Shown here one piece after another: positions 4,868 to 64,000 of a stretch of 64,000 nucleotides of DNA. The stretch comes from Thioalkalivibrio sp. ALJ24. GTDB lineage: Bacteria; Pseudomonadota; Gammaproteobacteria; Ectothiorhodospirales; Ectothiorhodospiraceae. The stretch covers positions 213,801 through 277,800 of the forward strand of contig NZ_KB898726.1 of assembly GCF_000377785.1 (NCBI RefSeq). Direction: 5' to 3'. Every line of letters starts with the position of its first letter. The stretch's first letter is position 1. Below the pieces are notes generated by a model that ran no database searches, had not been told where the DNA came from, and saw only the letters and a program-made list of their open reading frames with translations. Position numbers and translations under genes: made by a program.

Positions 4868-5527
4868 TCAGATCAGCCAGGTGGTGCCCATGCGATGTTC
4901 CGGCACCGCGCCCGGGATCAGGTCCATCAGCGCCCAGCCGAAGATCAGGGTCACGAACAGGCCGCAGAACACGGCCGCCACGAACACCCCGATGCGGTTG
5001 CCCCGGCGCAGTCCGGCGATCATCCGCAGGCTCCAGTACAGCAGCACCAGGCTGGAGAGAATCAGCGCCAGCCCGGTCACGTTACCCCAGGGCCAGGGGA
5101 AAGCAGCGATCACGTTGCCCCACCAGGCCGGTATCAGGCCGACGATCGACGCCAGCATCGCCCGCTCCGGCACCGAATGCCCCTGGAACAGTTCGCTCAT
5201 GTAATGCGCGCCCGCAGCCAGGCCCAGGACCCCGATGGACATGGTCAGAGCGCTGTACACACCGAAGCCCCATGGATCGGGCATCGCCTCCGGCGGCAGT
5301 CCCGTGGGAATCACCGTGTAGAGCCACTGGCTGACCAGCACGCTGACCACGATCAGCGGCACCCCCAGACGCAGGAAGACCCGCGGCCACGACGGCAAGG
5401 CCCCCGCCTCACTCAGTCCGGACAGGCGGCGCAGGGTGCCCGCCGGGTGGATCATGATGCGCACCGCCAGGCCCCATGGACCCGGCAGTGCACCGGATTT
5501 CGCGTCGTTTTTCTGATTCGTGTCCAT
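4868..5527 (-). CDS. Yip1-family integral membrane protein
   Basis: A 219-residue polytopic membrane protein. It opens with the Yip1-domain pattern seen in bacteria (AVRIMIHPAGTLRRL, a short soluble part), then about five hydrophobic segments: LGVPLIVVSVLVSQWLY, the ALTMSIGVLGLAAGAHYMSE region, LASIVGLIPAWWGN, a GLALILSSLVLLYWSL segment and FVAAVFCGLFVTLIFGWAL. Function in bacteria is unknown. The ATG at 5527 is preferred over the one at 5551 because two PhoB-like half-sites (5551-5565) lie over the upstream one. It is divergent from pstC. Confidence 0.7.
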   Translation of the reverse strand: MDTNQKNDAKSGALPGPWGLAVRIMIHPAGTLRRLSGLSEAGALPSWPRVFLRLGVPLIVVSVLVSQWLYTVIPTGLPPEAMPDPWGFGVYSALTMSIGVLGLAAGAHYMSELFQGHSVPERAMLASIVGLIPAWWGNVIAAFPWPWGNVTGLALILSSLVLLYWSLRMIAGLRRGNRIGVFVAAVFCGLFVTLIFGWALMDLIPGAVPEHRMGTTWLI

Positions 5528-50670: not shown

Positions 50671-50827
50671 GCCCGACAACCGGAGCCGAATAACGCGAAC
50701 CAGGCCACATTCCACTACCCGTGCCCCGCCCCGGCCAAAACGGGCGTGAGCGGAAGGGAATGGAAACCCGGGGCCGGAGCGTCTCAGCGGTATGTCCGTC
50801 AGATTTGCCAACGCAAGGGAGAACGAC

Positions 50828-51328
50828 ATGTCCGGATTTCTGCACCGTACCGGCCCACTCTCGGCCCTGCTCGCCGGGGCCCTGCTGCTGGGCGCCCCGC
50901 TGGTTGCCACGGCCGACGACGACATGCCCTGGGGATCCGCCGAGGTCAACCAGAAAGACTACGAACCCACTCGGGTGGTCTACGACGTGGCCGTGGATTC
51001 CGAGAGTGAAATGGCCTTCGTACTGGACCGTGTGAGCATGCTCAACAACGTCTACGAGGCCGATCCGTTCGACTCGCATATCGTGCTGGTGCTGCACGGC
51101 GGTGAGGTGCCCTTCTTCACCCGCGATCAGTTTGACGAGCGCGAGGAGCTGATGCGCCGTGCCGAATCCCTGACCCGCGCCGGCAACATCGAGATCCGGA
51201 TGTGCGAGGCCTCTGCGGCCCTGCGCGGCATCGAGCCGGAAGAGATCCACGGCTTCGTCGAGATCGTCCCCATGGCCGACTCGGAGATCATCCAGCTGCA
51301 GCAGGAAGGCTATTCCTACATGCAGTAG
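50828..51328 (+). CDS. Exported DsrE-family protein
   Basis: A 166-residue protein with a signal peptide (LSALLAGALLLGAPLVATA). The DsrE/TusD-like fold is seen in TRVVYDVAVDSESEMAFVLD, HIVLVLHGGEVPFFTR and EIRMCEASAALRGI, with one conserved cysteine in the last segment. Such periplasmic DsrE proteins are common in sulfur-oxidising bacteria. They may bind sulfur species on that cysteine. Start at ATG 50828, with an AGGGAG ribosome site. Confidence 0.8.
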   Translation: MSGFLHRTGPLSALLAGALLLGAPLVATADDDMPWGSAEVNQKDYEPTRVVYDVAVDSESEMAFVLDRVSMLNNVYEADPFDSHIVLVLHGGEVPFFTRDQFDEREELMRRAESLTRAGNIEIRMCEASAALRGIEPEEIHGFVEIVPMADSEIIQLQQEGYSYMQ

Positions 51329-51356: not shown

Positions 51357-51394
51357 AAAAAAGGCCGCCCGGGGATCCCCCCGGGCGGCCTTTT
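51357..51394. terminator. Bidirectional terminator at the prophage boundary
   Basis: GGCCGCCCGGGG and CCCCGGGCGGCC form a 12-bp stem. It has A-run on the left and TTTT on the right, so it can stop the DsrE transcript and, on the minus strand, the tRNA-Pro transcript that originally ended here. Confidence 0.92.
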
Positions 51395-51400
51395 GCTGTT

Positions 51401-51444
51401 TGGTCGGGACGGCAGGATTTGAACCTGCGACCCTCTGCACCCCA
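51401..51444 (-). other. attL: displaced 3' half of tRNA-Pro(GGG)
   Basis: On the minus strand this reads from the anticodon loop (TGGGGT) through the variable region, T-arm (GGTTCAAATCC) and acceptor 3' strand to an encoded CCA. The 5' half of the tRNA (acceptor 5' strand, D-arm, anticodon 5' strand) is absent: the sequence to the right is unrelated. This is the scar left when a phage inserts into a tRNA 3' end; the intact gene should lie at the far end of the prophage. The tRNA's own terminator remains on the left. Confidence 0.88.
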
Positions 51445-51645
51445 TGAATACGCGCAAACGCATCGGAAGTCTCTGAATTTCCTCTGTAAACAGGGCGTCA
51501 GGCGGGCTGCGTGTGGCGGCGTTTCGGTGCATTTGAAATCAAATAGATGCGTGACGGTTTTGCAATCGCCGCGGCCGGTGTTGGCAGGTCGACTGGCAGG
51601 ATGCTCTCGCGCCGGGTAGCCTGAAACCCTCATTCTATTCAGGGC

Positions 51646-52017
51646 ATGGACATGGCGGAAAAGCAGGAGGCGACGCCGGCGCAGACGGCGGTGGCGGCGG
51701 TGGTCGTGGTGATCGGTGCGGGCGTTCTGATGGCCTGGTGCTCAGGCGGTGGCGAGGATCGTCAGGCGCACCGGGGCGATGCGCGGGTGCTCTGCATGGA
51801 TCACGTCCGTGATCAGCTGCGGGATCCGGGTTCGGCGGAATTCTCCGGCTGGGGGGACTCGGAGACGGCCGTGGATGAAGACAATGGGACGTTCGAGGTG
51901 CGGGGCTGGGTTGATGCAGACAACGCCCTGGGCGGGACCGAGCGGCACTACTACACCTGCGTGGCGGATCACCAAGACGATGGGGAATACACCCTGGAGA
52001 TCACGCGTTTCGATTGA
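51646..52017 (+). CDS. Small membrane-anchored prophage protein, unknown function
   Basis: A 123-residue protein with one helix near the N terminus (TAVAAVVVVIGAGVLMAW) followed by a small soluble domain: LCMDHVRDQLRDPGSAEFSG, GWVDADNALGGTERHYYTC. The two cysteines may pair. Similar anchored small domains are frequent in phage and integrative elements but have no known role. An ATG at 51652 is an alternative start. It is the first gene inside attL. Confidence 0.6.
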   Translation: MDMAEKQEATPAQTAVAAVVVVIGAGVLMAWCSGGGEDRQAHRGDARVLCMDHVRDQLRDPGSAEFSGWGDSETAVDEDNGTFEVRGWVDADNALGGTERHYYTCVADHQDDGEYTLEITRFD

Positions 52018-52127
52018 TCAGGTGGAAACCACTGCCGCCTTGCATCTCATCCTTTCACCGGCCTCGAGAATTGCATCTCGGGGCCGTCCACAGATCGGTG
52101 CAGTAAACCCCACCCTCGGAGCATTGG

Positions 52128-53123
52128 ATGAATTCTATCTCACCTGAGGATACATACGCCTCTCTTATTTTCTCTCTCCCTGAATCCGAGCGAGCACTCG
52201 ATATACTGGAGATAAAAAATTTTCGTGAAATGCCCAAGAGGTTATATCGATTTCGTTCCGAATCGTGTCCCCGACAAAATCCATCCACACCTTATGCTGT
52301 GGACGAAATAAGACGAGGGTATGTTTATGCTAGCCCGGCGAACCAACAAAACGATGTTTTTGATTCCTGCTTAAGAGTTAACGCTGACGACCTCGCAGAA
52401 AAGGCGATGGGATCACCGAACGATTGGATTGAGTACCTCAGGGGGCAAGGGAAAACAATTAGCAAGCAGCAAGAACGTGACGTCTTGCAATTTAATTCGG
52501 TCTATGAGGCTGCGGCATATTTTATTGAAAACGAAGGGTGGTCAAAAGAGAAGTCCAAGGAGGCTGCATTAGCCTTGAAGAAGGCAATTAAAGACGTAAG
52601 CTTCAAGCCATTGAGCCAACAATTCTCGAAACTAATTCAAGATTCGAATCCATTGTGCTCGTTTACCGACACTCCGCTCGCTGAACAAATGTGGGGATAT
52701 TACAATGATAAGCCGTTCCAGGGTGCCTGCATTGAGTATAACCCGAGGAGCCAAATTGCGCCGCGAGCTTTTCAAAGGCTTACCTTGCCGGTTCAGTATC
52801 TCGAAGGCGGCATGGACGCAACAAACCACATGCTGGAATCTTTAAAACCTGATGGAAACATTCAACGGTTATCTCTGGTGGCCGCCCTAGTAAAGGATAA
52901 GAAGTGGGAGCATGAGCGTGAATGGCGTTACTGCGTGCCTTTCGGCATTGGCCCAAGAGAGTGCGGCGCCCCCGAAATAACAAAAGTTATACTTGGATAC
53001 CAAGCCGGTGAAACTTTTTCAGAACAGATAAAAGAAGTATGCCAATCCAATGGAATTCCAGTCGAAGTCGCCACCCCAGACCATGGATCTAGGAAGGTTG
53101 TGCTTAGACCTATTGATGAGTAA
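52128..53123 (+). CDS. DUF2971 family protein, AT-rich accessory gene
   Basis: A 331-residue protein. It begins with the DUF2971 pattern LYRFRS; later CSFTDTPLAEQMWGYYNDK and WEHEREWRYCVPFG are the conserved family blocks. The DNA is much richer in A+T than the rest of the window and codon use differs, which marks recent transfer. DUF2971 proteins are often found in prophages and defence islands and some have been linked to phage defence, but the mechanism is unknown. It is convergent with the tail operon. Confidence 0.82.
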   Translation: MNSISPEDTYASLIFSLPESERALDILEIKNFREMPKRLYRFRSESCPRQNPSTPYAVDEIRRGYVYASPANQQNDVFDSCLRVNADDLAEKAMGSPNDWIEYLRGQGKTISKQQERDVLQFNSVYEAAAYFIENEGWSKEKSKEAALALKKAIKDVSFKPLSQQFSKLIQDSNPLCSFTDTPLAEQMWGYYNDKPFQGACIEYNPRSQIAPRAFQRLTLPVQYLEGGMDATNHMLESLKPDGNIQRLSLVAALVKDKKWEHEREWRYCVPFGIGPRECGAPEITKVILGYQAGETFSEQIKEVCQSNGIPVEVATPDHGSRKVVLRPIDE

Positions 53124-53161
53124 CTCATAGCTGCTCGACATTATAAAAGCGTAACCGACTA

Positions 53162-53296
53162 TTAAACGGTGATGCTGTCCTGCGGCAGGTCGGGGGCTTC
53201 GTCTTCGATGCGGCCGGCGCGGACGTAGACGCTGGTGCCGGCGGGCTGGTCGCCGCGGACGCGCTGTTCGCCGCCGCCGACCAGTTCGACGGTCAC
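53162..53296 (-). CDS. 44-residue phage protein coupled to the upstream fibre gene
   Basis: A short frame with GTG start overlapping the upstream stop by one base (TAGTG). It encodes VTVELVGGGEQRVRGDQPAG and TSVYVRAGRIEDEAPDL and ends SITV. High GC and ordinary codon use match the tail genes. It is the last gene of the tail operon. I do not recognise the family. Confidence 0.5.
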   Translation of the reverse strand: MTVELVGGGEQRVRGDQPAGTSVYVRAGRIEDEAPDLPQDSITV

Positions 53297-53655
53297 TACG
53301 ACAGCTTCCACAGCGTGTCCCCGTCGTAGTAGAACCATCCGGCAGTTTCCGGCGAAACGTCGAAACTGTCATCACCGGCGACGACAGTAATGGAGTAGGT
53401 ATCGCTGGGGTTGAGGATCACGAACGGGCGCCGCACATCGGGGACGCCGAATGTCGCGTCCTCCGTCAGTTCCTCGTCAGGCTTCCATGCGAAGTGCATA
53501 CGGAACGAATCCTCGTCGGGGCCGCCTTCGCCGACGTCCCATTCACCGAGACCCGTCAGCGCGCGATCCAGCGCATCGAACGCTTCGTTCGCGGTCACTT
53601 CCTTCTGGTCCTGGTTCGCGGCGATGTGGCTGATGTTCAAGTTCGGGCTGCTCAT
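53296..53655 (-). CDS. Phage tail fibre-associated protein (DUF2793-like N-terminus)
   Basis: A 119-residue protein. The start, NLNISHIAANQDQKEVTANE followed by AFDALDRAL, is close to the opening of DUF2793 tail proteins found in alphaproteobacterial phages and gene transfer agents. The C-terminal half (ETAGWFYYDGDTLWKLS) is a small beta-rich tip. It overlaps its upstream neighbour by 4 nt (ATGA). Confidence 0.68.
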   Translation of the reverse strand: MSSPNLNISHIAANQDQKEVTANEAFDALDRALTGLGEWDVGEGGPDEDSFRMHFAWKPDEELTEDATFGVPDVRRPFVILNPSDTYSITVVAGDDSFDVSPETAGWFYYDGDTLWKLS

Positions 53656-54053
53656 TGCGGGGCCTCCGCGACGATGTTGTTGGATTCTGCTTCGGCTTCG
53701 CCTTGGCCGTAGGGGTTCTTTGCGATCACACGGACTGAGACCTCATGGCCGGCGTCTGCCGAAGTCAAGGTATACTCCGCGTCGGTCGCGCCCTCGATCG
53801 TCTCGCCGTCGCGCAGCCACTGATAACCGAACTCCTGCGGGTCGCGCGTCCATTCTCCGTGGTCCGTCACGGTCAGCACATCGCCGACGTCATAAACGTC
53901 CCGCGAAAGCAATGCGTAGCCGACCGCGCGATGGGATCCGACCACGCCGGGCGGCGAAAGCAGGGCATAGCCGACGGCCCTTTTCGATGCCATGACCTCT
54001 GGAAAAGCCAGCAAGGCATAGCCGACGGCCCTGTGACTCTGGATCTCAGACAT
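53652..54053 (-). CDS. Phage tail protein with three 17-residue repeats and an Ig-like domain
   Basis: A 133-residue protein. Residues 8-49 hold three copies of RAVGYALL, starting at 8, 25 and 42, so the period is 17. Residues about 50-130 resemble an Ig-like (immunoglobulin/PKD) fold: QWLRDGETIEGATDAEYTLT, HEVSVRVIAKNPYG. Such domains often decorate tail fibres and bind cell surfaces. It overlaps both neighbours by a few bases. Confidence 0.7.
   Translation of the reverse strand: MSEIQSHRAVGYALLAFPEVMASKRAVGYALLSPPGVVGSHRAVGYALLSRDVYDVGDVLTVTDHGEWTRDPQEFGYQWLRDGETIEGATDAEYTLTSADAGHEVSVRVIAKNPYGQGEAEAESNNIVAEAPQ
53907..54032 (-). repeat. Three tandem 51-bp coding repeats (RAVGYALL)
   Basis: Three copies of the octapeptide RAVGYALL occur at an exact 17-codon spacing. 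The spacers (AFPEVMASK and SPPGVVGSH) differ in sequence but not in length. The DNA copies are similar but not identical. Confidence 0.85.
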
Positions 54054-55017
54054 CGCGCGTCACCAGCCCCAGCTCTGCGTTGTCGATCTCGTCGTTGGTC
54101 CAAGCCTGCCCGGTTTCCGGGTTTGTCTCCCATACGAACTGATGGTTGTCCCAGGTCGATTCAGGGGCCGCCTGCCCGGTCTCGTAGTTCTCGCCGTCTA
54201 CACGGACCACGCCGGCCACCTCATCCGGTCCGCCTTCGCGCTGGATCGAGGCTTTCAGGATCAAGGCCTGCACATCAAGGTCCTCGAAGTCGGCCTCCGC
54301 GATTCGTTTCAGGGTAAACGTGGACACTTCGCCCGCGGTGTCGCTTGAGATTATATCGCTTTCGGGGGTGTCGCATGCGTTAATATCTTCGACGGAGCCG
54401 TCCCAGTCCTGCTTTTCCCCGTTGCCGTCGAGCTCTACGGTACGCAGGCGGTGGCCCCGCAAGCTGAAGTCAGCGGCAATAACCTCAGACACATACACTT
54501 GATTGAAGGAAAGCCCCGACGTCGTAACAAAGATCCGAACCTCGTCAATATCCCCATAGTCGCTAGTGTCCAGCTCTTCGCTGGCTACAAGGCCTTCGTT
54601 GAGATACCACTCGATGCCACCGTCTTTGACATGGACCATCGGGAAATTGGCCCCCGCCTCATTGAACGCGACCCCCTCCACTTCCTCCACAAACACCCAG
54701 TTTTCGCCGTCGTGGTATGCGGCCTTGAACTTCTCGTCGTCCCCAATGATCCCAGCAACCGGAGAACCGTCAGCCCGCAGCTCTATGAGGGCATATCCGT
54801 CGGCGATGTCGCCCTCAGCATGATCCATGACAACCCGGGCTCGCGCGCAAACCTCAGCGGATGCGCTGAACTTCGCCGACACAAACTCGTCGCTCCCGCC
54901 TCGAATCTCCACCGCACACCGAGAAAGGTCCCCGGACTCCACCGATCCGGTGTCTGTGCCAGAAAAGTCGAGCTCGTCGAAATCGCCGGGTTCAGACCCT
55001 ACAAACAGAATCGTCAT
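54046..55017 (-). CDS. Phage tail fibre-like protein
   Basis: A 323-residue, strongly acidic protein. It starts MTILFVGSEPGDFDELDFSG, a pattern common at the N terminus of tail-fibre proteins that hold a concanavalin/LamG-like domain. Alternating beta-type stretches such as VSAKFSASAEVCARARVVMD and WYLNEGLVASEELDTSDYGD fit such a jelly roll. It probably helps host binding. It overlaps the tail-tip gene by 4 nt. Confidence 0.65.
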   Translation of the reverse strand: MTILFVGSEPGDFDELDFSGTDTGSVESGDLSRCAVEIRGGSDEFVSAKFSASAEVCARARVVMDHAEGDIADGYALIELRADGSPVAGIIGDDEKFKAAYHDGENWVFVEEVEGVAFNEAGANFPMVHVKDGGIEWYLNEGLVASEELDTSDYGDIDEVRIFVTTSGLSFNQVYVSEVIAADFSLRGHRLRTVELDGNGEKQDWDGSVEDINACDTPESDIISSDTAGEVSTFTLKRIAEADFEDLDVQALILKASIQREGGPDEVAGVVRVDGENYETGQAAPESTWDNHQFVWETNPETGQAWTNDEIDNAELGLVTRDV

Positions 55018-58000
55018 TGCACTTTCTCCATTACCGGGAGCTCAATGTTGGTCGGCGGGCTCCCATCGGCCAACAGTGTTGCTTTTGCGGCCCGGCCGCG
55101 GCCGACGGTTTCGCTGATCTGGTACACGCGGACATCGACCGAATCCGGCACCGACTCGAAGTCCTCGATGGCATGCGACCTCGGATAGAGCGCGCTGGGT
55201 TCGTCGGACTCCAACGTGCGCAGCACTTCGCCGTCCCCGTCGAGGATGTCGACCTCATACCGCTCCGACCGCTCCGCCAGCGGGACAGTGCCTGTGCCGT
55301 CGCGCCAGGCGCCGCCTGTGCGGGTGCGCCGGACCCACGTTATGTTGATGCCGTCCATCGTCCAATCGCCGGCGATATGGACCGGGGCGTAGGGCTTCTT
55401 GTCCGCCCCGGTAATCGTCCGGGCGCGGGTGTCCACGTCCTCGAGCGACTGACCTCTCCCCACTCCTCGATAACGGATCTGGCGGCCCACCATGTCGACA
55501 GGCTCGTGCCACATCGTCCCGGCATCGGGCATCAGCACGACCTTCGCGCCTGCGCGATGCTTGAGGTTGTGCTCAGTTCCGCGGCGACCTCGCAGCAGGT
55601 GGCTCAGCCGCACGATGCCCGCCCCAATCTCCTCCGCATCGCGGTACTGGATGACCTCGCAATCCCCGTCCGCGTCGACGATCAGGGCGGCGTTCCTGCC
55701 ATCGAGGACCTGTCGTTCCGTGCGAGACTGGACCTGACCGTCCGGGTCGTAGGCTCTCACCTCGATAACGGTCTCGCGATCCCACACCCACGGACTCGGC
55801 GGAGCCCCGATACCCGACCGCAGCGACCCCATCACCGCCGGGCTCGACGTATGGGCGGCCCGGTCCCAGTCGACCCCGTCCCGCGCTCGCATCAGCGCCA
55901 GCGACCGCCACTTTCCGTCCGATGCCGGACTGGCAAACAGGTAGCGGGTGGTCAGGGCCTCTCCCGCCTCATCCTCGTCCCGCAGAAGCGGGGCCTCCGG
56001 GATCGCGTAACGACCGGGGACATCCGCCTCGACCCGACCAACGCGTGCGCCCCCGAGATCAGCCGTCACCTCCGAGCTGTAGGCCTCCGGCACATGACGG
56101 GACGCGGTGCAGCGGATCTCCCAGTTCGCACCGACCTCCGCCTCCGTGATGCGTGCCAGAGCGTATTCGCCGCCCGGCATCGGCAGGCGCACGAGATCGG
56201 TCGGATCGTAGGCGAGGAATCGCGCTGGGAGTCGGAACTCGAAGCCCTCGCGCTCCGTCCATGCCGCTGTCAGCGCACGGTCCGCCGCTTGCCGCCCCTG
56301 ATCGGGATGCAGCGCAAGCGGCAGGTTGTGCGTCACGCTGGACCGGGCCTCCATCGACGGGTTCGGCTGCGCTACACGGCGCACTTGCTGTGCCGCCTCT
56401 TGGTAGTCGGACTCCTGGTCCTGGAACTTCATCGTTACCGAAGCGGGTAGATCCACCTCCTGAACGCGCTCGATTTTCACGGCATCGCCGGAGTCGGACA
56501 GCGGCACCAGGTCTTTGTCGGTCAGCACCGTGGCCTCGTCGCCGCCGCGGGCGCGCGGGCGGAATACCAGCGTGCCGTCGGACTCCACCGCGTCGAAGTT
56601 GAACGCTTCCATCACGGGCTCGATGCCGTTCCGCAAAGGCGTCTGCCGCGTGATCGCGTAGCCTCGCACCTCCGGATCATGGATCTCGGACACGTCGACA
56701 TCGGTGATCCCCGCGCGCTCGCACAGACCCTCCACGATCTCCGCCGGGGTCGTGCCTTTGCCAGAAGCTCGATCCAGCAGGAAACGGCTGGCGAAGCCGT
56801 AGTCTGGCCCCCCCCATCCCGCAATGCTGTCGCTGGCGGGGTCATAGGACATGGCGTGGTACGAGTACACAGCGCCCCCCGACGGCCAGCAGTCCGTCTT
56901 CGTGACGACCCTACCGGAGCGCAAGTCGATCTTGACCACCCAGTCGCCGTGCTTCCACGCCATAAATCGCCCTTCGGTTCGGGTGGTAGCTACGGCGTGG
57001 TTCACATCGTAACGACGCAGCCCTCCGGAGCTGCTGAAGAGACGTTCGGACACCCACAGGACGCCGCTGTCGCCGCCGAACTTCACCGCATACAACCCCT
57101 CGGGGTTTTTCTCCGGGTCACCGAACTCCAGACCGACCAGGAACACAATGGCGTCATCAATCGGGTCGTACACCCCGCGGTTCGGCTCCCGAGTGAACTT
57201 GACCGCCCCCACGTCATCCGGGGACAGCGCCCACTTTCCAGTGAACTCCAGGCGGTAGGATATTCCGAGGGGCCCCATCTCCATGTGAGCCGTCATGCGC
57301 TCGATCGGGAGGCGGGTCTCATGCGTGTTGTTTGCCCCGCCCGAACGCAGGATCCAGGCGTCTCCGCTTTGATCGCGCTTGCCCTGGATGATCTGCCGGC
57401 ACTGCGTCGCCTCGGTTTCTCCCGAGTCGAAGCGGCCAATCCACTGCATGGAGTCGGCGTCGATCGCACCAATGACCGGGGTGTCCCACCGGCCGGACCC
57501 AAGCAATATCGTGCTCCACCCCTGATCTTCGGCCGAAAATGCCTGAATGAACCCGAACGCCGTGGAAATAGTGAATCCGCCGGAGTTTATAGAAAGGCTA
57601 ATCGCCCTGGATCCGAACCGATCGACGGCAGTCAACGAATCCGGGTCGATTTTCATCAGCGGGTTGGTGTTGCCGGCCCCGAACAGCGAGTACAGGTAGC
57701 CATCTGGCCCAAAGATCGGGTGGTTAGGCGATGTGTCCTCGTCAATACCTGACCCATCCAGTACGGCGGGATCGCTGAGGATTTCCTCGTTTGTCGCCTG
57801 GAACTCCTCTTTCAGTGTGCGCAAGTTGAACCTACGCAGCCCGTCCCTGGACCGAAGAATGAGCATGTTATTGCGCCAGTCCACGTTCGCCTGGCTGTGC
57901 GTCGAGGATGTGAACTCCGCGTCCGGCAGGGACTCCCCCTTGAGGGCCGGGCATGCGGAGTCTGACTTGAACACCACCTCGCATGTAATCATCGGAACGC

Positions 58001-58589
58001 GGCGCCCGAAGCTGTTGAGGGGCAGGTCCTCGAATACGATGTACCCGAGGCCGCGGAACGCGGGGACGTTGCCCTCGCCCTCGTGCGCCTCGATCAACGG
58101 GTCCGGCATCTGCTCTTCATCGCCCGGGTAGACCCGAAACTGCAGTCGGCCGTCGAAGGACTGGTCAACAGAACCCCCGGTGCGATCATGGATCAGCTTG
58201 CCGTCGGCCCAGATGCGGGTGACGCCTTCGATGGGTCCGGCCGCGAGCCCGATGGCGAACGAGGCGTAGTAGCTGTACTCCGTCACCTCGACCTCGTCGC
58301 CGCCGCCCTTTCCGCCCTGGGTGGTCGTGTCCGACTCCTCGCGCAGCTCGGTGGCCCAGATGCGGTTCCCCGCGGTGCGGAATGACCCGAAGCCCACAGG
58401 TATGGGCTCCCCGTAGGCCGCGGTCGACACGGACAGGTCTTCGAGCCTCGGCCCCTCCTGCTCGTGCGTGTCGGTGAAAAGGTAGCTGCCAGCCGCCGAC
58501 CCCAACGCCCAGCCGACTTTCGCCCCTGTGGGGCCGCCAACAAACCACCCGACCGCCGCGCCGACACCGCCCAGAACGAGGTCAGCCAT
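55014..58589 (-). CDS. Large phage tail-tip protein (host-specificity/GTA gp15-like)
   Basis: A 1191-residue protein. Residues 1-210 match the N-terminal part of tail-tip proteins (GGPTGAKVGWALGSAAGSYL, YGEPIPVGFGSFRTAGNRIW, FEDLPLNSFGRRVPMITCEV). Residues about 225-610 are an insertion with beta-propeller-like text (FGPDGYLYSLFGAGNTNPLM, KIDPDSLTAVDRFG). Residues 610-1191 are the phage-tail_3-type region (LRNGIEPVMEAFNFDAVESD, EVDLPASVTMKFQDQESDYQ). It would form the baseplate hub and contact the host. It is preceded by the NlpC/P60 gene. Confidence 0.82.
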   Translation of the reverse strand: MADLVLGGVGAAVGWFVGGPTGAKVGWALGSAAGSYLFTDTHEQEGPRLEDLSVSTAAYGEPIPVGFGSFRTAGNRIWATELREESDTTTQGGKGGGDEVEVTEYSYYASFAIGLAAGPIEGVTRIWADGKLIHDRTGGSVDQSFDGRLQFRVYPGDEEQMPDPLIEAHEGEGNVPAFRGLGYIVFEDLPLNSFGRRVPMITCEVVFKSDSACPALKGESLPDAEFTSSTHSQANVDWRNNMLILRSRDGLRRFNLRTLKEEFQATNEEILSDPAVLDGSGIDEDTSPNHPIFGPDGYLYSLFGAGNTNPLMKIDPDSLTAVDRFGSRAISLSINSGGFTISTAFGFIQAFSAEDQGWSTILLGSGRWDTPVIGAIDADSMQWIGRFDSGETEATQCRQIIQGKRDQSGDAWILRSGGANNTHETRLPIERMTAHMEMGPLGISYRLEFTGKWALSPDDVGAVKFTREPNRGVYDPIDDAIVFLVGLEFGDPEKNPEGLYAVKFGGDSGVLWVSERLFSSSGGLRRYDVNHAVATTRTEGRFMAWKHGDWVVKIDLRSGRVVTKTDCWPSGGAVYSYHAMSYDPASDSIAGWGGPDYGFASRFLLDRASGKGTTPAEIVEGLCERAGITDVDVSEIHDPEVRGYAITRQTPLRNGIEPVMEAFNFDAVESDGTLVFRPRARGGDEATVLTDKDLVPLSDSGDAVKIERVQEVDLPASVTMKFQDQESDYQEAAQQVRRVAQPNPSMEARSSVTHNLPLALHPDQGRQAADRALTAAWTEREGFEFRLPARFLAYDPTDLVRLPMPGGEYALARITEAEVGANWEIRCTASRHVPEAYSSEVTADLGGARVGRVEADVPGRYAIPEAPLLRDEDEAGEALTTRYLFASPASDGKWRSLALMRARDGVDWDRAAHTSSPAVMGSLRSGIGAPPSPWVWDRETVIEVRAYDPDGQVQSRTERQVLDGRNAALIVDADGDCEVIQYRDAEEIGAGIVRLSHLLRGRRGTEHNLKHRAGAKVVLMPDAGTMWHEPVDMVGRQIRYRGVGRGQSLEDVDTRARTITGADKKPYAPVHIAGDWTMDGINITWVRRTRTGGAWRDGTGTVPLAERSERYEVDILDGDGEVLRTLESDEPSALYPRSHAIEDFESVPDSVDVRVYQISETVGRGRAAKATLLADGSPPTNIELPVMEKVQ

Positions 58590-58995
58590 GCTTCACCTCC
58601 AGGCGAAACACGCCGACCACGCGCTCGGCCCAAGGGGAGACCAGCGGTTCCTCGATCACCTTCCGGCGGTGGGCATGGGCGTGGATGATGTGAGGCGCGC
58701 CGCGCTTCTCGGACTGTATGCCGACGTGCAGGGTCTGCGCACGCTCAGCGATCACGAGGACATCCCCCGGAGACGCGTCTTGGAGGTGGACCCGGGGCAG
58801 CAGCCGGTCTAGCTCGCGCATCAGGCGCGTGCCCTCCGGCCGACGGCCGTAGTCCGTGCGGTCGTGGTGCGGCAATCCGAGGGCATCGGCCACCATCACG
58901 ACCAGACCGAGGCAGTCCACGCCGGCCGGGCCGCGCCCCTGGTGCCGCCAGCGGGTTCCGAGCCACTTCCGCGCTTCTGCAACCGGTTCAGCCAT
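58582..58995 (-). CDS. NlpC/P60-family tail peptidase
   Basis: A 137-residue cell-wall peptidase of the tail tip. The catalytic Cys is in GPAGVDCLGLVVMVAD and the catalytic His in LHVGIQSEKRGAPHIIHAHA. Start and length match GTA gp14/phage lambda K-like proteins. It probably opens peptidoglycan during DNA injection. It overlaps both neighbours by 8 nt. Confidence 0.87.
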   Translation of the reverse strand: MAEPVAEARKWLGTRWRHQGRGPAGVDCLGLVVMVADALGLPHHDRTDYGRRPEGTRLMRELDRLLPRVHLQDASPGDVLVIAERAQTLHVGIQSEKRGAPHIIHAHAHRRKVIEEPLVSPWAERVVGVFRLEVKHG

Positions 58996-59842
58996 CGGGG
59001 TACTCCATCAGGGAGTCGTTGCCCGGGATGAACGGCTCGCCGCGGAAGTTCAGCACGTTGTCGAACCGATCGCGGCAGGTCTCCAGACGCTTGTCGCAGC
59101 CGGCGTAGATCTCGAACTCGTCCCCGGCTGCCGGCGTGTACGATGGCGGGAACGCCAGGGTAATGGTGTCCTTCTCGAGATCCACGGCCGTGACTTCGAT
59201 CACCTTGCCCTCGTTCTGGCCGCTCGTCCATGTCAGCACGCCGTGCTCGAAGATGCTGGCGTCCACCCCGTCGGTATCGCTGATCGAGGCCTCCAGCGTC
59301 AGATCGGTCCCGGGGCCGAGGATCACGCCGGTGTGCGTCCACTCGGACAGGTCCACCTTGCAGCGGTTGTCTCCGAGGTCGGCGCGGCAGTTCGGGGTGT
59401 AGCTCTCGATGATGTTCTGCGCGAGGGCTTGCGTCATGCCCCGCAGGCTGGTGTGCCAGTGCCCCTCCCGGGACAGGGTCACGTCGCCGATCCAACCCCG
59501 CCGGAGGTTGATGCGTCCGGCATCCGGATCCTGCCAGTCGACAGCGAACACGCGCAGCTCGGCGTGATCGTAGAGCCCGGCGCGGATATCCTCGGCGGTG
59601 ATCGTGTCCGTGCTCAGCACGCCGTCGAGGTCGGCGTTGTCCACGGACAGGGCGCCGGTGGTCGCCAGGGCGCTCCGCGTGTACCCAGTGCGGGCGGCGT
59701 AGGTCTCGCCATCGACGGTCAGGTCGTGGTCGTGGTCCGTTGCCCGGATCACGAATCCGTCCCGGCGTTCGAGCCGCCAGCAGGTTGCCAGGGTCGTGAC
59801 CTCCTGCTCCAGCAGGTCGGCCAGTCCGCCGATGTCCTTCAT
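58988..59842 (-). CDS. Phage tail protein, DUF2163/BR0599 family
   Basis: A 284-residue baseplate-hub component. The N-terminal LATCWRLERRDGFVIRATDH, INLRRGWIGDVTLSREGHWH, and the four-cysteine set near NCRADLGDNRCKVDL and YAGCDKRLETCRDRF are the family marks; in gene transfer agents the related hub protein binds an iron-sulfur cluster through such cysteines. It overlaps the DUF2460 gene by 4 nt. Confidence 0.85.
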   Translation of the reverse strand: MKDIGGLADLLEQEVTTLATCWRLERRDGFVIRATDHDHDLTVDGETYAARTGYTRSALATTGALSVDNADLDGVLSTDTITAEDIRAGLYDHAELRVFAVDWQDPDAGRINLRRGWIGDVTLSREGHWHTSLRGMTQALAQNIIESYTPNCRADLGDNRCKVDLSEWTHTGVILGPGTDLTLEASISDTDGVDASIFEHGVLTWTSGQNEGKVIEVTAVDLEKDTITLAFPPSYTPAAGDEFEIYAGCDKRLETCRDRFDNVLNFRGEPFIPGNDSLMEYPDG

Positions 59843-60468
59843 TCGCGCACCCCCAGCAGCCGGATAGACGGAATCGTCTGCAGATGCTGGAGATCCACCA
59901 TCGCCTCCATCGCATCCTCGGCGAACCGCACCGGCACGTCGAACTCGAACGTCGCCGTCAGCTCCTTTTCCTCCGGCGGCTCACCTTCCTCTGGCTCCGG
60001 CGGCACCGAGTCCCCGCTGATCGTGACCTCGCCGGTGCTATGGTCGACGGACACGTCCCCATCAGGGAGCGCCTGCCCGTCGGCGTACACCGTCACAGTG
60101 CCCTCCACGGGCCGGGTGATCCTGCGGGTGTACGCGGGGTCGCCGTAACGCTTCACGAGCTGGAACTCGGTGCTGTCGTAGCGCAGCGTTCCCAGATGCT
60201 GATCCTTGGCCTGGAAGTCCCCCCAGTCCTTGAACCTGAACCCATACGCGCGGCCCATGCGCGCGCGGAAGAACGCCAGCACCGACTGGATGTCCTCGGC
60301 GTCCTGTAGCCCGTATGAGATGTCGTACTCGGGGCGCTCCTGCGACCACTCGACGTTGCGCTGTTCGTGCCCGCTGGCCATGGTCACGACGTTGGTCAAG
60401 AATTTCGGCCCACCCACAGCACCGCGCTCAATTCGCTCGGGTAGCCGGATGTCGTGGAAACTGGTCAT
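59839..60468 (-). CDS. Phage distal tail protein, DUF2460 family
   Basis: A 209-residue protein. FHDIRLPERIERGAVGGPKF at the start and LAFFRARMGRAYGFRFKDWG in the middle are the DUF2460 signature; the end FDVPVRFAEDAMEAMVDLQH also fits. It corresponds to GTA gp12, the distal tail ring that joins tube and hub. It overlaps the tape-measure gene by 4 nt. Confidence 0.88.
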   Translation of the reverse strand: MTSFHDIRLPERIERGAVGGPKFLTNVVTMASGHEQRNVEWSQERPEYDISYGLQDAEDIQSVLAFFRARMGRAYGFRFKDWGDFQAKDQHLGTLRYDSTEFQLVKRYGDPAYTRRITRPVEGTVTVYADGQALPDGDVSVDHSTGEVTISGDSVPPEPEEGEPPEEKELTATFEFDVPVRFAEDAMEAMVDLQHLQTIPSIRLLGVRE

Positions 60469-62447
60469 AGGTTCTTCCTCGAAGCCCTGGCCATCGCAGC
60501 CTGCGTGCGCGCCATGACCTGCGACTCGCTGCGCCGGAAGCTGTCGGCGTCCTGTGCCTGGATGTTCATGTTCACGGTAATACCGCCACCCTGCCCGCCA
60601 CGGCGTTCGCGGGTGTGATCGGTAACGGTCTCATTCGGGTGCAAAATCGCTGGGAATCCGCCTTTCCCGTCCACACCGCCAGACCGCGGCCCGGGGCCGG
60701 TGTACCCGCCGCCGTCGAACGATTCCATCGCACCGCCAATAGCCCCGATGAATCCGCCCTGCTCGGACATCGCCCCGCCAATCGTCTCCAGAAGCTGACT
60801 GGCGAGCAGGTCGGCCACCATCCGATCAATCGTGGCCTTGAAGTTGCCGACAAGGTCGTCCATCTCGCCCTGCATCGCGTCAAAGAAGAAGTCCGACATG
60901 GACCGCTGCATGTTGCGCGCAGCCTCCGTCCAGAACTCCTCTGCCGCGCTGGAAGCTTCCTCGTTGCGGTCCGCGAAGTCATCCATGCTTTCCTGCGCGT
61001 CCAGGGTGGCGCGGGCGTAGGTGTCCCAGCTGATGACCCCGGCGTCCAGCATGTGGTCCAGACGCGCCATCTCCTGGTTGAGCTCTTCCAGGGGCGTGCG
61101 GGTCTCCTCGTATACCCGGGAACCCTCCTGTTCGAGCTCGCGGTAGGCCTCCGTCTGTTCGCGGATCAGTGCGACCTGCCGCTCCATCTCCCGACTGAGC
61201 CATCCGGGTCCGCTCTCGCCGGAGGGGGCGGATCCGGCGTCATCGCTCTCCGGTTCGGGGATCGGCTGAGGCTCCGGAGCGGAACGTCCGGTGGGGATAT
61301 CCAGCGGCTCGATACGCGGGCCCTGGTCGCGCGTGCCCCTCTGTTCCTGCCGCTCGTAATGGCGCTGGATGGCGCGGTCGATTTCCTCGAGCTCCTGCTC
61401 GAGCTCGTCGCGCGAGTAGTACTGCACCAGACCGTCGCGCCCGAAGAACCGCAGACGCTGCCCCATCCCCGCGATGCCCTCGAGGTTGAGCATCGTCTCG
61501 ATGCGGTCGCTCTCCTGTTCGAGACGGGCGATGTCATCTTCCGCGATGCCCCCGGTCCGGGCGGCGGCGCCCTCTGCAGCCCACTTCGTGAGATCCGAAG
61601 TGACGGACAGGAAGTCGAGACCTTTTTCCGCCGCGGTGGCCAGCGCATCCGCCAGCTGCATGTACGAGTCGGCGTTGTCGAGGATCTGCTGGTTGAACCG
61701 GCTGCTGATGATGTCCCGCATCTGCGAGAGCTGATCGTTCGCCGCGCGGGCATTGGCCACGGTCTCGTTGTCCAGAACCCGGCCCTGTTCGCGCAGGGCG
61801 TCGATCTGTTCGTCCAGCGCGTCGGAACCCTGCCCCAGCACCGCGGCCAGCCGGGGGCCGGCGTCCTCGCCAAACATCTGCGAGGCGCGCGCGGCGCGCT
61901 CGGACCCGCTCTCGATGTCGGCCAGGGTGCGCAGGGATTCGCGCAGCACGTCGTCCGTGCTGCGCATCTGCCCATCGACGTCGCGGATCGCGATCTCCAG
62001 GTCCTCGAACGTGCCGGCGGCGGCGCCCGTGCCCTGGTCGGCCAGACCAAGGCGCCGGTTAAAGCGGCGCAGCGCACCGCTGGTGACGCCCTCGGCAATC
62101 CCGCCAAGATCCTCGAACGCCTTGGTCAGCTCCTGATAGGTCTCCGCGGTCACGCCGCCTACGTCGGCGGCCTCGCTGATGGCGGCGGTCTGTTCGATGA
62201 CGTTGGATGCGGTGCGGCGCAGAAGGCTCACGCCGCCGATGCCTGCGAGCGGGCCCAGGATACGGCGCACGCCACCCATGCTCTGAGCCCACACGTCCCA
62301 CTCGCGGCGCGACCGGCGAATGGTCCGGTCCTTGCGCTCGATCTGGCGACCCAGACGCCGCAGCTCGCGGTCCGTCATGTGCATGGCGTTGACGGCGCCC
62401 TGCGAGTCCCCCGTCAGGCGGACGCCGAAGCGAACCTCACGCGCCAT
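60465..62447 (-). CDS. Phage tail tape measure protein
   Basis: A 660-residue protein that sets tail length. The N terminus MAREVRFGVRLTGDSQGAVN is typical. A central alpha-helical region is rich in Glu/Arg/Ala, with a hydrophobic stretch at about residues 55-85 (GGVRRILGPLAGIGGVSLLR). The C terminus has VNMNIQAQDADSFRRSESQV and AAMARASR, as in lambda-H/GTA gp11 type proteins. A tail of about 100 nm is implied by length, as a rough rule. Confidence 0.87.
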   Translation of the reverse strand: MAREVRFGVRLTGDSQGAVNAMHMTDRELRRLGRQIERKDRTIRRSRREWDVWAQSMGGVRRILGPLAGIGGVSLLRRTASNVIEQTAAISEAADVGGVTAETYQELTKAFEDLGGIAEGVTSGALRRFNRRLGLADQGTGAAAGTFEDLEIAIRDVDGQMRSTDDVLRESLRTLADIESGSERAARASQMFGEDAGPRLAAVLGQGSDALDEQIDALREQGRVLDNETVANARAANDQLSQMRDIISSRFNQQILDNADSYMQLADALATAAEKGLDFLSVTSDLTKWAAEGAAARTGGIAEDDIARLEQESDRIETMLNLEGIAGMGQRLRFFGRDGLVQYYSRDELEQELEEIDRAIQRHYERQEQRGTRDQGPRIEPLDIPTGRSAPEPQPIPEPESDDAGSAPSGESGPGWLSREMERQVALIREQTEAYRELEQEGSRVYEETRTPLEELNQEMARLDHMLDAGVISWDTYARATLDAQESMDDFADRNEEASSAAEEFWTEAARNMQRSMSDFFFDAMQGEMDDLVGNFKATIDRMVADLLASQLLETIGGAMSEQGGFIGAIGGAMESFDGGGYTGPGPRSGGVDGKGGFPAILHPNETVTDHTRERRGGQGGGITVNMNIQAQDADSFRRSESQVMARTQAAMARASRKNL

Positions 62448-62493
62448 GGGCTACACTCCCCGCATTATCCCGTTCGAATCGTGAGGCATCGAC

Positions 62494-62691
62494 ATGACCA
62501 AACCCGCCGGCGTATTCCTCCAGATCATTGGCGTGCTGATGATCCTGTACGGATTCACGGAGGCCGCAGAGGGCGGCAGCCAGTGGCCGATATGGGCCGG
62601 TCTCGGGCTCCTGGTGTGGGGCGGCATCGGCATCCGCAAGCGGATTGACCAGGAGACCGGTGTCACGAAGACTGACGACGATCGGAAATGA
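62494..62691 (+). CDS. Small membrane protein encoded against the tail operon
   Basis: A 65-residue protein with two helices (GVFLQIIGVLMILYGF and IWAGLGLLVWGGIGI) and a basic, then acidic tail. It lies on the plus strand between the tape-measure gene and the DUF1799 gene, and its end overlaps the end of the latter by 29 nt. A GTGAGG ribosome site precedes the ATG. This placement is typical of a phage moron with its own promoter. Function is unknown. Confidence 0.6.
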   Translation: MTKPAGVFLQIIGVLMILYGFTEAAEGGSQWPIWAGLGLLVWGGIGIRKRIDQETGVTKTDDDRK

Positions 62692-62974
62692 TCCGGAGCG
62701 TGGCTGTTTCCAGGTGCTGAACGCGCTCGAAACAGTCATCCGGGTCATCCGGGCCGTACCGCCGCAGGGCCACATCGACGCCGGCATAGTCGAGGCCGGT
62801 GGCGCCGGCCATGCCCACTCTCCACTGGGTCTGGCAGCGCAGGAACACCTCCACTGCATCCCAGTTCTCCGGCCATACGTCGATCGGTTCATCCCGCTCC
62901 TCTCGCTGCCTGAGTGCCGCTTTCAGTTCCGGGGATAGGTTCTGGTCGTCCGCCGCGCGCCCCCGGTCGATCAA
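62663..62974 (-). CDS. Tail assembly chaperone, DUF1799 (frameshift extension)
   Basis: A DUF1799 domain: PIDVWPENWDAVEVFLRCQT, then WRVGMAGATGLDYAGVDVAL. The first possible start (TTG at 62974) is poor. The frame stays open upstream to a slippery site at 62995-63001. I therefore read it mainly as the -1 frameshift extension of the preceding chaperone gene, as with lambda G-T; independent initiation is possible. Confidence 0.82.
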   Translation of the reverse strand: MIDRGRAADDQNLSPELKAALRQREERDEPIDVWPENWDAVEVFLRCQTQWRVGMAGATGLDYAGVDVALRRYGPDDPDDCFERVQHLETATLRIISDRRQSS

Positions 62975-63336
62975 CCTGCGCGCGACGTCTTCGAGTTTTT
63001 TGCCGCACCACCCCCGGTCGATACCTCCTGCAGCGCCCGCTCCAGGGCGTGAAGCAACGGGATGGACTGTCCCAGGTACTGCTCCAGGGTCTCGCGCGAG
63101 AACGGGATCGCCGCGCCGGTGTCCGGGTCGTGTGGGCCGCTCCAGTCGACCACGTGTTCCAGCAGCAGCCCGACCGGGTCGGGCCGGCTCCCGGCGGAAA
63201 GCTGGTTCACCTGATCGGTGGAGAGCGGCCGGATCCGTGCCTCGAACTCATACGTCTCGGTCTCGCCATGGTCCGCGGCCTCCACCACCTGCACCGGCCA
63301 CCACACCGGGGCCCGTTCTTTCCGGAAGGCGCGCAT
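62971..63336 (-). CDS. Tail assembly chaperone (short form)
   Basis: A 121-residue protein with the alpha/beta pattern of GTA gp10.1/TAC-type chaperones: ETYEFEARIRPLSTDQVNQL, LLEHVVDWSGPHDPDTGAAI, FSRETLEQYLGQSIPLLHAL. It starts on TGATG with the tail-tube gene. The C-terminal codons include the slip site GCA-AAA-AAC. The full -1 product would have about 224 residues. Confidence 0.82.
   Translation of the reverse strand: MRAFRKERAPVWWPVQVVEAADHGETETYEFEARIRPLSTDQVNQLSAGSRPDPVGLLLEHVVDWSGPHDPDTGAAIPFSRETLEQYLGQSIPLLHALERALQEVSTGGGAAKNSKTSRAG
62995..63001 (-). promoter_or_regulatory. Slippery heptamer for -1 frameshifting
   Basis: A-AAA-AAC, in frame with the chaperone gene (codons 112-114: GCA, AAA, AAC). 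A -1 slip moves reading into the open DUF1799 frame, with next residues LEDVARRLIDRG. The heptamer has the X-XXY-YYZ form used in tail chaperone frameshifts. Confidence 0.8.
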
Positions 63337-64000
63337 CAGGAGTACACCAGCATCAGCTCGTCATCCTCGCCGGTGGCGCGGAATCCGAGGTCATATGTGG
63401 CGATGCCGTTGCGGCTGTCGTACGGCAGCTGGGTGTACTGCGTGCGCGGCATCACCAAGCGGACACGTCGGCCCGCTCCGGTTCCGATACCCGCGGCGAT
63501 GGCCACGTAGTTGCCCTGCGACCAATCCTTGTACGGGTTGAAGTCCCCGAGGCCGGTCACCTCCGGGTCCACCGATCCTGTGGGGTCGCGCTCGGTGATC
63601 AGGAAGCCCCGGAACCCGTCTTCGGCCTGCATGTCGTTACGCGGCTGCACTTCATTCGCCATGTCGGCCTGCACGGAGTTGACGGCCACCTGCTGCATGT
63701 CGAGGTTGCCGATGGTCATCCGGGCACCCAGGGCGGGCGTGGGCACCTGGTCAAGGTATTCCCCGGAAATGGGGCCGCCCGGCGCGGGCTCCAGGTACTT
63801 GCCCGACAGGGTGAACGTGATCTGCGGGATCTCCGCGCGGGTGATATTGAGGGAGAACGTGGCACGGGCCCCGGCCACCTTGTGCAGGTTGCCGTCGAGG
63901 TCGTAGCGCAGGTAGACCGAATCCTGGTCGTTCGGGCGCGGGGAAGCGGGCCGATATACCCAGGCGTCCGCAGCGGCATCCACCGTGCCCGCCGCCTCGC
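63336..64000 (-). CDS. Phage tail tube (major tail) protein, 5' end outside the window
   Basis: At least 215 residues are visible; the frame remains open to the window edge, so the start is probably beyond it (a GTG at 63983 is the last possible start seen). LHKVAGARATFSLNITRAEI and PQITFTLSGKYLEPAPG recall tail tube proteins, as does its place right before the chaperones and tape measure. Confidence 0.7.
   Translation of the reverse strand, partial: EAAGTVDAAADAWVYRPASPRPNDQDSVYLRYDLDGNLHKVAGARATFSLNITRAEIPQITFTLSGKYLEPAPGGPISGEYLDQVPTPALGARMTIGNLDMQQVAVNSVQADMANEVQPRNDMQAEDGFRGFLITERDPTGSVDPEVTGLGDFNPYKDWSQGNYVAIAAGIGTGAGRRVRLVMPRTQYTQLPYDSRNGIATYDLGFRATGEDDELMLVYS

Follow-up and report, generated by a model that had tools for sequence, protein, structure and literature searches.

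A displaced tRNA-Pro(GGG) 3′ fragment as the left attachment site of a Thioalkalivibrio prophage

The attB sites of phages lambda and HK022 lie outside tRNA genes, unlike the site described here. Among mobile elements that do use tRNA genes, the Islander collection counts 3,760 islands that have a 3′ tRNA fragment and 2,083 whose attP is anticodon-centred (PMC4383910). The latter arrangement is class A in Islander (Williams 2002, as cited in PMC4383910). We analyzed a 64,000-nt stretch of the genome of Thioalkalivibrio sp. ALJ24 (the window; coordinates with the prefix C3 are those of the whole contig, NZ_KB898726.1) and found at one locus the same anatomy as in class A: an intact tRNA at the integrase end, a displaced 3′ fragment at the other, an integrase beside the att site, and identical terminal direct repeats formed by a block of identity that runs from the anticodon loop to the tRNA end. 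Nothing of substance differs from class A, and the host strain and the phage are new. The element is typical of prophages at anticodon-loop sites in tRNA genes, and its mode of insertion is common and well understood. It is almost certainly a temperate phage of 39,263 bp that has a lambda-type integrase and is inserted in tRNA-Pro(GGG), and the fragment in the window is its attL.

Sequence comparison within the contig revealed a 48-nt exact direct repeat, with the left copy at C3:265199-265246 and the right copy, attR, at C3:304462-304509, a spacing of 39,263 bp. The 3′ part of tRNA-Pro makes up 46 of the 48 nt (51401-51446, minus strand), and the remaining 2 nt lie past the CCA. On the tRNA strand, identity begins at the C that is the last base of the anticodon stem's 5′ strand, 1 base 5′ of the 7-nt loop ATGGGGT, and the block thus starts at the loop as in an anticodon-centred att subsite. 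ARAGORN found no complete tRNA in the window, where tRNA-Pro is represented by the fragment at attL only, and a complete tRNA-Pro(GGG) at the right copy (C3:304464-304540, minus strand; CGGGGCGTAGCGCAGTCTGGTAGCGCATCTGCATGGGGTGCAGAGGGTCGCAGGTTCAAATCCTGCCGTCCCGACCA). A second tRNA-Pro(GGG) was not found in the genome, the next best candidates checked being tRNA-Pro(TGG), a tRNA-Thr/tRNA-Leu pair, tRNA-Met and tRNA-Arg; a query spanning the repeat matched elsewhere only 23-25 nt parts of tRNA-Met and tRNA-Arg genes. In a genome of 2.8 Mb, an exact match of 48 nt cannot be a coincidence.

An earlier note, made from the letters of the window, had placed the left boundary of a prophage in tRNA-Pro(GGG) at 51401-51444, where it saw the 3′ part of the tRNA with its CCA beside the tRNA's terminator. 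The fragment is indeed there, on the minus strand with a strong hairpin adjoining, and the boundary is supported by the 48-nt repeat, by the phage genes between its copies and by an empty site in a relative. The note had proposed as a test that an identical copy should lie to the right inside a complete tRNA-Pro, with an integrase nearby; the copy within the tRNA gene at C3:304464-304540 passes it, and an integrase gene (C3:303233-304366, plus strand) stops 95 bp short of the repeat. Its measurements need adjusting. The repeat is 4 nt longer than the 44 nt it had given, so that the crossover core, which does have its second copy, is to be sought within 48 nt rather than 44, and the divergence that it had put in the anticodon loop falls at the end of the anticodon stem, 1 base before the loop.

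Table 1 Features of the window and of the attachment sites. Coordinates are window positions unless marked otherwise.
Feature	Coordinates	Strand	Remarks
DsrE-family protein, host left flank	50792..51328	+	Pfam DsrE, E 1.1e-9; adjoins unoccupied tRNA-Pro in HL17
Original host tRNA-Pro terminator, left at attL	51358..51396	-	Hairpin -38.4 kcal/mol, z -6.6; T-rich on both sides
attL	51399..51446	-	Displaced host tRNA-Pro(GGG) 3′ half; exact repeat of C3:304462-304509
Anticodon-loop heptamer ACCCCAT (tRNA strand ATGGGGT)	51439..51445		Identical in attL and attR
Prophage interior	51447..64000		Runs on to C3:304461, about 26.7 kb right of the window; phage genes throughout
CGCAAACGCAT, possible Int-binding motif, right phage arm	51453..51463	+	1 mismatch from CGCAAACGAAT
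Prophage-end ORF, 123 aa	51646..52017	+	Without family match
DUF2971 protein, candidate defence gene	52128..53123	+	PADLOC PDC-S31, E 3.7e-23; low GC (0.48) stretch just inside attL
Tail protein	55014..58589	-	phrog_4271, E 2.5e-214
Minor tail protein	58582..58995	-	phrog_329, E 4.8e-16
Tail assembly protein	58988..59842	-	phrog_778, E 2.5e-70
Phage protein in tail module ('glycoside hydrolase')	59839..60468	-	phrog_2913, E 2.8e-68
Tail tape-measure protein	60465..62447	-	phrog_8462, E 1.8e-23, and others
Phage-borne terminator-like hairpin	L009 1415-1463	-	Directly behind rebuilt tRNA-Pro; found by folding

We searched 40 relatives with the joined flanks of the prophage, and Thioalkalivibrio halophilus HL17 (NZ_MUZR01000008.1) matched both flanks at once, with an alignment that is unbroken across the tRNA (84-88% identity on the left, about 86% on the right). 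Here the order ihfA, merR, tRNA-Pro(GGG), terminator hairpin and DsrE gene is uninterrupted, and the hairpin after the intact tRNA matches the one beside attL. Because this unoccupied site has the same neighbours on both sides, the insertion is demonstrated and not merely deduced, and nothing in the data speaks against it. The HL17 site also tells the two 3′ halves apart: the one in the window, with the host terminator beside it, is the original half of the host, and the one in the complete gene came from the phage side of the crossover. No integrase was found near tRNA-Pro in the genus among the matches listed.

Genes between the repeats are arranged in two sets. Those for the tail, tape-measure, connector, major head (capsid), head decoration, protease and portal proteins and for both terminase subunits are on the minus strand, whereas an S24-type repressor, SSB, an excisionase-like ORF and the integrase are encoded on the plus strand. 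The DUF2971 gene is probably cargo. Farther right, genes that match ShosT (E 1.1e-47) and ShosA (E 3.2e-98) form an overlapping pair on the minus strand (L008 12043-12678 and 12671-13702; C3:296043-297702); ShosT and ShosA constitute a known phage-defence toxin-antitoxin system. A 247-aa ORF (C3:286611-287354; L008 2611-3354) is on the plus strand, opposite to the head genes around it. It had no match in Pfam or PADLOC and is likely inserted cargo.

A search of 50,697 phage records with the initial 19.5 kb of the prophage gave no near DNA match, and a 1.5 kb segment of its body matched nothing notable in the genomes of relatives searched; the phage is therefore new to those collections. In IMG/VR, the contig IMGVR_UViG_2518285533_000001 (38,439 bp) is 100% identical to the prophage over the 6.1 kb compared and stops at the end of the integrase gene, its ends having been set by genes and not by att sites. 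If the two are collinear, this contig is short by about 0.7 kb on the left and 0.1 kb on the right, and length arithmetic on the same assumption puts its start at window position 52128, where the DUF2971 gene begins. The exact 45-nt core was not found in viral contigs, as would be expected if this one stops before the core.

By its sequence, the 377-aa integrase is of the lambda type of tyrosine integrases. It has an N-terminal arm-binding domain (PF09003, E 4.4e-17, residues 1-71) and a phage integrase catalytic domain (E 1.5e-15), solved structures of lambda Int align with almost all of it (E 1e-31), and the catalytic R, K, H-x-x-R, H and Y are kept at 6/6 positions when it is aligned to lambda Int. 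It shares its arm-binding, core-binding and catalytic domains with the integrases of lambda and HK022, the latter 32.6% identical. Directly upstream, a 66-aa ORF that overlaps the start of the integrase gene matches excisionase phrog_629 weakly (E 1.3e-6) and is a probable excisionase. Related phage integrases, about 29-34% identical, are those of Marinobacter phage PS3, Pseudomonas phages LESphi3 and PotUPM1, HK022 and Alteromonas phage P24. With a single-sequence query, no related integrase was found in 84,980 species genomes, and viral contigs yielded only the copy of this same prophage.

Two of these phages are instructive about the attachment site. The integrase of P24, although distant (29% identical), has the same length as ours, and near its gene lies an unannotated tRNA-Pro 3′ fragment (MK241539.2 10252-10316; L083 4001-4065) that ends in CCCCATG and is very likely the attP core. 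PotUPM1, whose integrase is 33% identical, carries a tRNA 3′ fragment from the anticodon loop on, which suggests another target, probably tRNA-Val(GAC). Unannotated fragments of this kind (probably Val, GAC) are found downstream of the integrase gene both in PS3 (L080 near 4940-4990) and in PotUPM1 (L082 4239-4286), and are likely attP cores. In Siphoviridae sp. ctl617, tRNA-Pro adjoins an integrase too, but the latter is not a close relative.

From the anatomy of the two ends and what is known of lambda Int, we propose that the integrase crosses over in or beside the host anticodon loop. The 5′ half of the host tRNA stays at the right end, where the 3′ half borne on attP completes the gene, and the host's original 3′ half is displaced to the left end together with the original terminator. 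On the 3′ side of the crossover, identity would be kept because a functional tRNA 3′ half has to come from the phage. An overlap of 7 bp is the rule for lambda-type integrases; since the 7-nt loop fits it, we propose the heptamer as the probable crossover region. The host anticodon stem around it forms an inverted repeat, TCTGC-ATGGGGT-GCAGA. The motif CGCAAACGAAT occurs in two tandem copies in the left arm (L009 1379-1400) and in one copy with 1 mismatch in the right arm; of the 4 sites in 51 kb that differ from the motif at no more than 1 position, 3 are in attP, and these copies may be arm-type sites bound by the integrase. The crossover could instead take place nearer the 3′ end of the tRNA, at the T loop or the acceptor-stem junction, as identity covers the whole 3′ half, the sequence by itself cannot place the exchange, and the T loop or junction is also a common subsite (PMC4383910). 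We consider this improbable, given that identity ends within 1 base of the anticodon loop, that a match reaching so far would be needless, and that the fragments in P24 (tRNA-Pro) and PotUPM1 (another tRNA) share the same boundary.

Partial tRNA fragments can also stem from duplications or lost islands. On such general grounds the fragment might be an old decayed tRNA duplicate or the end of a degraded island, unrelated to any mobile unit, but no result of the analysis points that way. We give this practically no credence: the fragment matches the intact copy at 48/48 positions, phage genes lie between the two and an integrase at the opposite end, and the empty site in HL17 together with that integrase refutes it. 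A separate matter, compatible with the insertion, is whether the prophage is a defective remnant that no longer excises or forms virions. That no lysis gene was identified among the prophage genes and that the excisionase match is weak speak for such decay; the identical att sites, and an integrase and assigned structural genes that are all open and full-length, speak against it. We regard a defective state as rather unlikely, though it deserves some weight, and favor a prophage that would probably be able to excise.

Integration also appears to affect the end of the tRNA transcript. The host terminator stranded at attL is possibly bidirectional. At attR, folding reveals a GC-rich hairpin in phage DNA after the rebuilt tRNA (-22.1 kcal/mol, z -2.85), with six consecutive U on the tRNA side, an orientation that suits transcription of the tRNA and not of the integrase gene. 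Our terminator scan gave no match at this hairpin, probably because its rule is limited to short loops and unbroken stems. By this orientation, the phage appears to bring a substitute for the terminator in addition to the tRNA half, and the hairpin would be expected to work as a terminator. PotUPM1 likewise has a strong terminator hairpin after its tRNA fragment (stretch fold -35.6 kcal/mol), while P24, unlike the prophage, is without a clear one beside its own. On balance, we lean towards an attP-borne replacement terminator, with lysogeny restoring the entire 3′ end of the tRNA-Pro transcription unit and not the tRNA sequence alone; PotUPM1 would act likewise, and P24 would not. A small literature search found no paper stating terminator replacement as a rule, and we do not claim novelty for it.

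These findings place both ends of a Thioalkalivibrio prophage with single-base precision, extend the existing IMG/VR call, and provide haloalkaliphilic sulfur oxidisers with a mapped pair of integrase and attB. Within the tRNA-Pro target, a stretch of 45 nt has exact matches in genomes of Thioalkalivibrio, Marinobacter, Spiribacter and Thiohalophilus; the integrase might therefore be usable across these four genera.
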